Translations under genes and position numbers: made by a program
Part shown: piece by piece, positions 7,317 through 53,252 of the stretch
Layout: each line of letters starts with the position of its first letter
Position numbering within the stretch: position 1 is the first letter of the stretch
The notes under the pieces: model-generated
What the model was told of the DNA's origin: nothing
Database searches by the model: none
What the model saw: only the letters and a program-made list of their open reading frames with translations
Assembly (NCBI GenBank): GCA_021816895.1
Contig: JAKAWW010000001.1
Location: 248,001 to 312,000, forward strand
Source of the DNA: Microcaldota archaeon
GTDB lineage: Archaea; Micrarchaeota; Micrarchaeia; Micrarchaeales; Micrarchaeaceae
Direction of reading: 5' to 3'
DNA: 64,000 nt

Positions 7317-7493
7317 TTAGAAGATCAGCTTAGCAATGCCCTTGCTCGTCTTAAATCCTTTCGAGAAGTCATCCCTGAATTTTGCAGTTTCTCCAGCAAT
7401 ATTTATCCTCGGGCAACCATTTGGGCTAGAAACGAATACAATTCTGTTTCTACTTACATAGAGTTTTCCTCTTTCATTTACCATGCTTCCCAT
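7317..7493 (-). CDS. Small paralogous protein B of a tandem pair, 58 aa
   Basis: 58 residues, starting MGSMVNERGKLYV. GGTGAT lies 5 bases before the chosen ATG; an earlier ATG at 7505 overlaps the stop of the upstream copy. The last 32 residues are identical to those of the neighbouring copy at 7505-7681 while the N-terminal half differs. Pattern: short beta strands (KLYVSRNRIVFVSS), CPRINI, then a basic Phe/Lys-rich tail. Family not recognised; it could be a small beta-barrel-like protein. Confidence 0.65.
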   Translation of the reverse strand: MGSMVNERGKLYVSRNRIVFVSSPNGCPRINIAGETAKFRDDFSKGFKTSKGIAKLIF

Positions 7494-7504
7494 CTTTATC
7501 ACCA

Positions 7505-7681
7505 TTAAAATATCAACTTAGCAATGCCCTTGCTCGTCTTAAATCCTTTCGAGAAGTCATCCCTGAACTTTGCCGTTTCTCCTGCAATGTTTATCCTTGG
7601 GCAATCACTGCCACTTGAAACGAATACAATCCTATTGCCATTCACATAAAGCCTTCCTTTTTCGCTTATTCTGCTTCCCAT
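7505..7681 (-). CDS. Small paralogous protein A of a tandem pair, 58 aa
   Basis: 58 residues, starting MGSRISEKGRLYV, first gene of the pair. AGAGTGAT precedes the ATG and a TATA box (TTTTTAAATC on the minus strand) lies at 7730-7739. Equal length and an identical C-terminal half with the copy at 7317 show a recent duplication or gene conversion limited to the 3' half. Function unknown. Confidence 0.65.
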   Translation of the reverse strand: MGSRISEKGRLYVNGNRIVFVSSGSDCPRINIAGETAKFRDDFSKGFKTSKGIAKLIF

Positions 7682-7729
7682 TGCTATCACTCTAATATAA
7701 TCTAAATCACATTTTAGAGTTGTCTGGCA

Positions 7730-7834: not shown

Positions 7835-10690
7835 GAGAAGTTTGCGTTTTAGGCGTTAGTAATGGTATGCCCGCAGATCGTTGCCTCTCTGCATATACAC
7901 CCATCCTATCAAAGCCATATATTATGGCCGCCCTAGTGCCTCGTTTCGGGTACAGCTTCGTCCTTAGATGCTTTCAGGACTTATCCGTTTGGCGCGTGGC
8001 TACCCAGCAGTGCATTCACAACTGGTACACTAGAGGCGCCGATCCCCTGTTCCTCTCGTATTGAGGGGGTCTTATCCTCTGGCACTAACACTCCCAGTAG
8101 ATATTACCGTACTGTCTCGCGACGTACTGAACTCAGCTCGTGTAGGTTTTTAATGGACGAGCAGTCCAACCCTTGGCCGCTTGTGCACGGCCAGGATAAC
8201 CTAAGCCCATATCGATGTATCAAACCGCCGGGTCGATGGGGACTCTCACCGGCGACGAATCGGTTACCTCCAGAGTAACTTGTTTGACAGCATGGAGCCC
8301 CATTAAAAGGGCTTCCACAGTTCCCTAAGCCCCCGTTTCCGGTCTGCATGCCACGCTTTTCGACATACAGTCAGCCCTGCATTTGCCTTTTTGCTTGACG
8401 GTAGTTTCCCAAGCTACCTAAGCAGAGCATTGGTCACTTTCGTTTCCTTATCGAAAGCAACCGCCCAGTCTAACTACCCACCTGCAGCTGTCCTTGTTCA
8501 GTTAGCTGAAATGCGAATCAAGAGTGGTGTTACATTGTCGCTCCGCCTGTCCCGAAGAACAGGCCTCGACGCTTCCACTTACGCTATGCGTGACCCACAT
8601 TCCAACAACCACAGGCTGTAGTCAAGCTTCATGGAGACTTCATTTCCCACTGAGAGATCGCGGCATATTCACCGCGCAGTAAGTTCACCGGATCGGATGT
8701 TGGGACAGCGGGACAATCGTTACGCCCTTCATGCAAGTCACCTATTAAGTGACGAGGTATTACGCTACCTCAAGAGAGTCAGAGTTACTCCCGCTCTTTG
8801 CCAGCGCTTCTTCCCCTTGAAAAGGGCTTTCACGTACTGGCGGTGAGCAGGCGTCACCCACTGTACTAAGCCTTTCGGCTTTGCGGTGAGTTGTGTTTTT
8901 GGTAAACAGTCGTTGTCCCCTAGTCAGTGACATCTGCATATCCTATACGCAGACATGGCTTCTCGTTACCTTACGCCACCATTTTGCCGATTTCCCTAAC
9001 ATCCGTTAGCTCCGTCACACCTTGGCCTTTTCAGCCAGCAGCACCTTTACTAGTTCTAGGTACGGGCTGGGATGATCGCTGCAGATTCCCTTTTCACTGG
9101 CTCAGGAATTCAGTCCATTAGTTCATTTAGCTGCTTCTCCTCATAACGAGACTCCACAGCCCTTTGCACTTTCTTGCGGACCTATCCCCAAGCGTCAGAA
9201 ATCTGCCTTGTGTTGCCACACCTACATCCCAGGGGCTGGAATATTGACCAGCTTCCCTTTTGGTGGGGAGTTATTGGCACCCACCTTAGGATCGCCTAAA
9301 TCTCCGCTGACGAGCGTTGCGAAGAAACCCGTGTGCTTCCGGTGTATGGGATTCTTACCCATATTTGCTGTTACTAATACCAGGATTTTCTCAACGGCAC
9401 GGTCCACATGTCCTCTCGGACATGCTTCTAGCCGTGCCACACGCCCTCTTACCTGTCTCTCGACACTGGGGTATCGGTACCTAGTTTAGCCCCGTATATC
9501 TTGGGCAAAAAGAACCTCAACTGGTACGCTATTACGCGTTTTTTGAAGGATGGCTGCTTCTGAGCCTACCTCCCAGCTGTCTAAGATTCTCTCTGCCTTC
9601 AGAACACTTAACTAGGATTTCGGGACCTTAGCCCCAGTCACCGTCTTTGCGGTCTCGCGAGGCTAGCTTACCCAGCCCCGCCGACTCCCGGGATCTACGC
9701 AGCATACGCATTCGGAGTTTGACAGTTTGATGGAACCTTTCGGAACCTTTTCAAACAATCGGTAGCTCTACCGCGTATGCAAGCTCCCCCAGGGCTATCC
9801 TAAAGATACTTCAGAGGGGACCCGCTATTGCCATGTTCGAATGGTATATCGCCGCTACCCGCAACTCACCCAACAGGACATGCCATGACAGGTTGCGGAC
9901 CTCCACCAGGCGTTAGCCTAGCTTCGTCCTAGTCGCGCGTAGTTCACAATGGCTTCGGGTCGAATAAGAGTGACTTGGGCATTTTCATACCTCGCGCCTC
10001 ATTGCTTGCGCGCTCTCGCTTTCGCTGCGCCTTTCGGCTCGCCACTCCTATGCACTCCCTGGCTCTTGCTTCAAGAAGAATGGCAAGACACTGCTCCATG
10101 CCCTTCGCTAAGCCCTCTCAAGCTTCGCTTCAGGGCACTTCATTCCTTCCGCGCCTTGCCTTCATGTCACCACCTAGTTTCAGATCTTTTCAATCCCACG
10201 CGTGTGGGTTCTTTTCAGCTTTCGCTCGCGCTACTTGTACGCTATCGGTCTATAGCCAATATTTAGGGTTGGGGTTTAATGCCCCCATATTCGCTCTGCA
10301 TACCTAAGCAGAGCTACTCTCTTGCAGCTTCTCCATCGCACTTAACCTACGAGGCTGTCACTCTCTGTGGCCGCGCTTTCCAGCGCGTTCGGCTCATGTT
10401 CTGGATGAATCACTGCACCACATCTCCACGCCTTTTGCAAAGCAGGATTCGGTACGCCCTCTGCGGCTTTCATTCGCATTACTCGCCGCATCGCTCTCGC
10501 TTTCTTCTCCTGCGGGTACTAAGATATTTCAGTTCCCCGCGTATGTATGCACGCTTGCGCATGCACAATTCGGCAATCCCGGGTTCAAAACCTGACTTGC
10601 GGCTACCCCGGGCTTATCGCAGCTTGCCACGGCCTTCATCACTGCTATAGCCAAGCCATCCCCTAGGTGGTTTGTATTAGCAAACTTCTC
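7835..10690 (-). rRNA. 23S ribosomal RNA (divergent, unlinked)
   Basis: Read on the minus strand, conserved blocks occur in the right order: GAACTGAAATATCTTAGTA near 10530, GACTGGGGCTAAGGTCCCG near 9640, GAGGTAGCGTAATACCTC near 8760, and the sarcin-ricin loop at 8051-8066. The gene ends pair: GTGGGAGAAGTTTGC at 10680-10694 with GCAAACTTCTCTCAC at 7831-7845, the helix-1/processing stem, which sets the approximate ends. The length of about 2.86 kb leaves no room for a large intron. Many normally invariant domain V and VI bases differ, at least one with compensation. No 16S, tRNA or 5S lies beside it. Confidence 0.95.
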
Positions 10691-12162: not shown

Positions 12163-12274
12163 GGGCTCGTGGCTCAGTAGTAGAGCGTCCGCTTTGCAAG
12201 TAAGCTTCTTGAAAAGAAGCTTAAGCAAGAACCAAAAAAGCGGAAGGTCGCGGGTGCGATCCCCGCCGAGTCCA
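12163..12274 (+). tRNA. tRNA-Ala(TGC) with a 40-base intron
   Basis: The acceptor stem GGGCTCG/CGAGTCC with A73, D arm GCTC/GAGC, anticodon loop TTTGCAA and T arm CGGGT-GCGATC-CCCG all fold. Anticodon TGC is at 12195-12197. The anticodon stem TCCGC/GCGGA is interrupted at the canonical 37/38 site by 12199-12238. The intron has a perfect 10-bp hairpin (TAAGCTTCTT/AAGAAGCTTA, loop GAA) followed by GCAAGAACC. The GCAA can pair with TTGC of the anticodon loop as a bulge-helix-bulge core, but the 3' side is not a canonical three-base bulge. CCA is not encoded. Confidence 0.93.
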
Positions 12275-53144: not shown

Positions 53145-53252
53145 AGCCCTGAGAGGGGATTGAACCCTCGACCTCCTGTTTTCCTGCTCTTGCTTAAGCT
53201 TCTTTTAGAAGCTTATTACAAGACAGGCGCTCTACCACTGAGCTACCAGGGC
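53145..53252 (-). tRNA. tRNA-Thr(TGT) with a 36-base intron
   Basis: On the minus strand: acceptor GCCCTGG/TCAGGGC with U73, D arm GCTC/GAGC, anticodon stem CCTGT/ACAGG, anticodon TGT at 53218-53220, T arm GAGGG/CCCTC. The intron at 37/38 spans 53181-53216 and contains a perfect 9-bp hairpin (TAAGCTTCT/AGAAGCTTA, loop AAA) then AGCAAGAGCAGG. It is clearly related to the tRNA-Ala intron. Its 3' end is the source of the repeats scattered to the left. CCA is not encoded. Confidence 0.93.

Follow-up and report, generated by a model that had tools for sequence, protein, structure and literature searches.

Natural A at the bulged-G position of the sarcin-ricin loop in an order of Micrarchaeota, and its co-variation with EF-1A residue 50

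Base G2655 of 23S rRNA (E. coli numbering) is a textbook near-invariant base within the loop that is attacked by ricin and alpha-sarcin. It is the bulged G of the sarcin-ricin loop (SRL), and its donor contacts have been described (PMC9204769). In model duplexes, changing the bulged G to A costs about 6 kcal/mol, and the general fold seems to be kept (PMC8450098). The same paper describes a bulged A in helix 11 of the yeast large subunit, which is flipped out of the base triple. For position 2655 of E. coli, PMC4176186 lists only pyrimidines as lethal, so that the motif can tolerate an A; the viability of A2655 in E. coli follows from the "purine requirement" given there. On the side of the elongation factor, eEF1A in the mammalian elongation complex carries, ahead of switch I, a short insertion whose loop 48-53 touches uL14 and whose Ser53 touches SRL nucleotide G4600 (Shao et al. 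2016, PMC5119991). Since A4607 is equated there with E. coli A2662, G4600 is the equivalent of G2655. No report of this natural variant appeared in the mostly open-access literature searched, in which the papers on archaeal 23S RNA dealt with other organisms.

The 23S gene and its sarcin-ricin loop

The window is the whole stretch of DNA that was analysed, 64,000 nucleotides from a Micrarchaeota genome. The features that concern us are the following:

7837..10688, minus strand: full-length 23S rRNA gene (Rfam RF02540, 2269 bits, model positions 1-2987), the sole copy in the genome
8043..8069, minus strand: helix 95 and sarcin-ricin loop, stem ends approximate; a CCCC...GGGG stem flanks the loop, and the homologous stem co-varies in relatives
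8051..8062, minus strand: sarcin-ricin 12-mer AATACGAGAGGA, corresponding to E. coli 2654-2665, with one mismatch to canonical
8061, minus strand: A, the equivalent of bulged G2655, with the E. coli numbering counted from the invariant A2654 (8062)
G000:C1:544921-546180, outside the window: aEF1A gene, encoding R50

Within the full-length archaeal 23S gene, minus-strand positions 8066-8051 read CCTCAATACGAGAGGA. A preliminary description of this DNA had claimed that the base matching G2655 is A and that the rest of the 12-mer is kept. The strand as read and the covariance-model match bear out the first claim, and a base-by-base comparison with the canonical AGTACGAGAGGA bears out the second, only 2655 being different. 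The gene has the marks of a functional archaeal 23S, namely a full-length covariance-model match in a single intact copy. At the homologous site, it also has the marks of the H95 loop: the 12-mer, the GAGA tetraloop and the C2658-G2663 pair. The bulged-G motif lacks its defining G, having the A at 8061. Its pairs U2656-A2665 and A2654-purine/C2666 are retained as judged by sequence, and 2654, 2656, 2665 and 2666 are invariant in the 100 genomes described below. The host genome is closed, with one contig of 928,770 bp, and contains one 23S gene; a second, standard copy was sought in it, and the window's copy was the only match. We consider it quite probable that this gene is a functional 23S rRNA in which a natural A replaces bulged G2655, a judgement made jointly with the co-evolution with EF-1A discussed below.

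The surroundings of the gene have some features of their own. Immediately downstream of the 23S gene lie two near-identical small ORFs in tandem (7317-7505 and 7505-7690, minus strand), which encode 62 and 61 amino acids with an identical C-terminal half. Elsewhere in the window, two tRNA genes with introns of about 40 bases (12163-12274, plus strand, and 53145-53252, minus strand) are detected by Rfam and missed by ARAGORN at its default settings.

Distribution and history of base 2655

A pattern search across the phylum (301 genomes), followed by extraction of the 23S genes, yielded 100 genomes of the window's order with a readable loop. Base 2655 is A in 78 of them, G in 20 and U in 2. In the window's own family, AATACGAGAGGAAC is read in nearly all genomes. 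Ca. Micrarchaeum sp. A_DKE, whose genome is complete (NZ_CP060530.1, L265), also has A2655. All 32 of the 23S genes checked from other families of the class have G. The alignment with a covariance model of archaeal LSU and with relatives, proposed earlier as a check, thus finds A2655 to be real. The earlier statement that this base is almost never changed holds for the 32 genes of the other families and fails for the order, where 80 of the 100 genomes have a base other than G. The GTPase-associated centre does differ from the textbook case, as had been said, but this is not private to one genome: A2655 marks most of the order and is also present in one bacterial family.

The remainder of the loop is steady. 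Throughout the 100 genomes, positions 2654, 2656-2663, 2665 and 2666 are invariant and 2664 has changed once, while the stem varies freely. That sole other loop change, G2664 to T in L079 (genome G253), is in a genome that also has A2655. Position 2653 is a G, which can pair with C2667, in 31 of the 32 outgroup 23S genes; each of the order's 100 genomes has a pyrimidine there. The pyrimidine may have been a permissive background for the change at 2655. The A matches outside the order (G142, G145 and G147) and odd matches in G044 and G182 show no homology to 23S and are due to chance.

One could ask if the A is a sequencing or assembly error, or if the RNA is edited back to G. Most of the genomes are bins from metagenomes, and in at least one of them (G171, L072) the 23S contig is probably misbinned: the bin is from the other family, yet this contig has 97% identity with the window's 23S. 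However, dozens of independent assemblies have A2655 in common (all 78 A genomes come from separate assemblies, complete ones included), and the window's genome has a single 23S copy. Editing to G is unlikely because it fits neither the U2655 genomes nor the co-variation with an EF-1A partner. For the clade as a whole, the error explanation is refuted, and the chance that error or editing accounts for the pattern is negligible.

About 85,000 species genomes were scanned for the A2655 pattern, and the context was checked match by match. The pattern covers A in a mostly canonical neighbourhood only, so the scan may overlook U/C2655 variants and further lineages, and it may also lack records close to the genome that contains the window. 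A2655 was found in Micrarchaeota, some of them labelled Marsarchaeota. Elsewhere, A2655 in real 23S is mainly in the bacterial family Ca. Fermentithermobacillaceae (family labels L195, L239, L186, L207 and L248), where the complete genome CP062796.1 has it at both matching 23S loci and three more bins also carry it. This is an independent bacterial origin. The members of this family are thermophiles. Their EF-Tu is without the EF-1A insertion, and inspection of it by eye revealed no obvious counterpart change. Among the other results of the scan, a Lachnospiraceae bin has a match in real 23S situated at a contig end, and Caloramator sp. mosi_1 (L279, G305:C1:1125042-1125055) has A2655 in one of its eight SRL copies and G in the other seven. 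The A2655 contigs in Deltaproteobacteria (L192) and Planctomycetota (L272) bins look misbinned, and most matches outside Micrarchaeota fall outside 23S and are due to chance.

Within the order, base 2655 has changed repeatedly among G, A and, rarely, U. On a 23S tree made with 2655 masked, the base needs at least nine changes; if only G and non-G are distinguished, in the genomes that also have EF1A, the count is eight. Genomes with G2655 are nested among A genomes in three places: the clade of G008 (a closed genome of 952 kb), G032 and G264; G232 with G230; and G003. With the direction of change read from the outgroups alone, these apparently reflect reversals to G.

Changes that are repeated and reversible are arms-race-like, and toxins attacking this loop are known. 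Under an explanation by escape from a ribotoxin or an SRL-cleaving nuclease of the VapC20 type, the change of the bulged G would protect the loop and EF1A would follow. We regard this as improbable. Tuning of loop stability to the habitat (temperature or acid, for example by a protonated A that mimics the donors of G) is more improbable still. It would accord with a report (PMC8450098) in which most replacements of the bulged G are in psychrophiles and mesophiles. Against it, the base differs between close relatives inside one family, and U2655 cannot mimic the G donors as a protonated A might. The thermophilic Fermentithermobacillaceae also run opposite to the reported trend.

Co-variation of 2655 with EF-1A

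Partners of 2655 were sought among the other 23S columns, EF2, uL14 and EF-1A. No other 23S column tracks 2655 like a compensating base. EF2 (29 proteins) has no strong partner, its best p being 5e-4, and none was seen in uL14. The partner found in EF-1A is residue 50 of aEF1A, within N[R/K]PTFEFAFVMD, in a short loop that precedes switch I. The combinations of base and residue in 88 genomes are A-R in 56, G-K in 19, A-K in 10, U-R in 2 and G-L in 1; G2655 with R50 occurs in none of the 88. If the suspect bin G171 is left out, R50 is present in 58 of 67 genomes with A or U and K50 in 19 of 20 with G. The ten A-K genomes are eight from one clade of genus g4, G026 and the probably misbinned G171. 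Among complete genomes, G000 and A_DKE (G030) are A/R, and G008, G039 and G024 are G/K. The 28 EF1As of other families that were read have K at this residue without exception, and so have the EF1As of other archaea that have been crystallised, for which reason G-K is taken as the ancestral state. In the window's species, R50 has replaced this lysine of the docking loop, the equivalent of eEF1A K51.

A Pagel-type likelihood test of EF1A-50 against 2655, without G171, gives an LR of 37.7 (p 1.3e-7). The runner-up EF1A columns are residue 77, with an LR of 22.7, and then one with 14.4. Residue 77 has a trend of its own towards K with G2655 and R with A/U2655. In the reverse test, none of the 2571 variable 23S column-letters partners EF1A-50 as well as 2655 does, the next having an LR of 15.5. 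Base 2655 and EF1A-50 are the reciprocally best pair over all variable 23S and EF1A columns. On the EF1A tree, the two traits need eight and nine changes singly, and the joint state needs only ten. Of the tests, the most conservative uses independent pairs from branches with good support; it has low power and gives four for, none against and one tie, and independent pairs on the EF1A tree give three for, none against and one tie.

The position of residue 50 can be related to the mammalian complex. It aligns without gaps to eEF1A K51, both being 18 before the R of RGIT, and the numbering of K51 and S53 was confirmed in 5LZS. The published contact to G4600 comes from Ser53, not K51. Since the search for co-variation was blind to structure, its agreement with the contact loop of eEF1A is independent support.

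These data can be set against relaxed constraint and drift in the small, fast-evolving genomes of symbionts, with the K/R difference in EF1A coming from shared ancestry or from a near-neutral, charge-conserving exchange. Such a reading would fit the existence of A-K genomes, the small number of independent contrasts and the apparent viability of A2655 in E. coli, where pyrimidines are listed as lethal (PMC4176186). It fits poorly with a pair in which each is the other's best partner out of thousands of columns when the phylogeny is modelled, with the place of EF1A-50 in a known contact loop, and with the remaining loop bases, which are not relaxed. We therefore consider drift unlikely, though less so than escape from a toxin.

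Proposed compensation and comparison with known loops

The explanation that we prefer, and hold to be quite probable, is that the bulged-G motif has been rewritten naturally and that a side chain of EF1A compensates for it, where the contact and the compensation are what we infer. G2655 would hold the motif together by hydrogen bonds, with its N1 and N2 donating to U2656 and to a phosphate of the backbone. Without those donors, A2655 would leave the motif looser, and U presumably would do likewise at a greater cost. Once EF-1A docks on the loop, the guanidinium of R50 might bring in replacement donors or charge, possibly through direct contact with A2655, and activation of the GTPase would thereby be preserved despite A or U at 2655. 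We propose that an arginine at residue 50 would clash with a G or add nothing to it, and that G-R is never seen for this reason. The tolerance of A-K in one clade implies that compensation is favourable and R is not obligatory. It is also likely, with somewhat less assurance, that base 2655 and EF1A-50 co-evolve in living cells and that both G-K and A/U-R are compatible combinations, each an alternative to the other. There would then be a second natural way for the SRL to engage EF-1A, one that includes a pyrimidine of the kind lethal in E. coli.

Nature has in effect run an experiment on which atoms of the loop must be present for GTP hydrolysis to be triggered, in an order that dropped and apparently regained G2655 while one EF-1A residue changed in parallel. 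A specific pair of base and residue, 23S 2655 and EF-1A 50, can now be named, and it would be a clear example of the joint evolution of an rRNA and a translation factor at an "invariant" site.

The loop described here shares with the canonical sarcin-ricin loop (helix 95 of 23S/28S) its location in 23S, its stem, the 11 other bases of the 12-mer and the GAGA tetraloop; it differs in that the bulged base is A (U in two relatives) rather than G. Helix 11 of the S. cerevisiae LSU likewise has A for the bulged G of a sarcin-ricin-like motif (PMC8450098), but that is a separate helix and not the factor-binding loop. In the E. coli G2655 mutants covered by PMC4176186 and the work it cites, the identical base was substituted, and a purine was required and pyrimidines were lethal. 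Those mutants were made in the laboratory against an unchanged elongation factor, whereas the change in this order is natural, fixed and repeated and extends to U. Finally, mammalian eEF1A has the homologous loop (K51-G52-S53) beside the equivalent of base 2655, and the difference is that in the Micrarchaeota order, A or U at this base goes with a change of the K to R.
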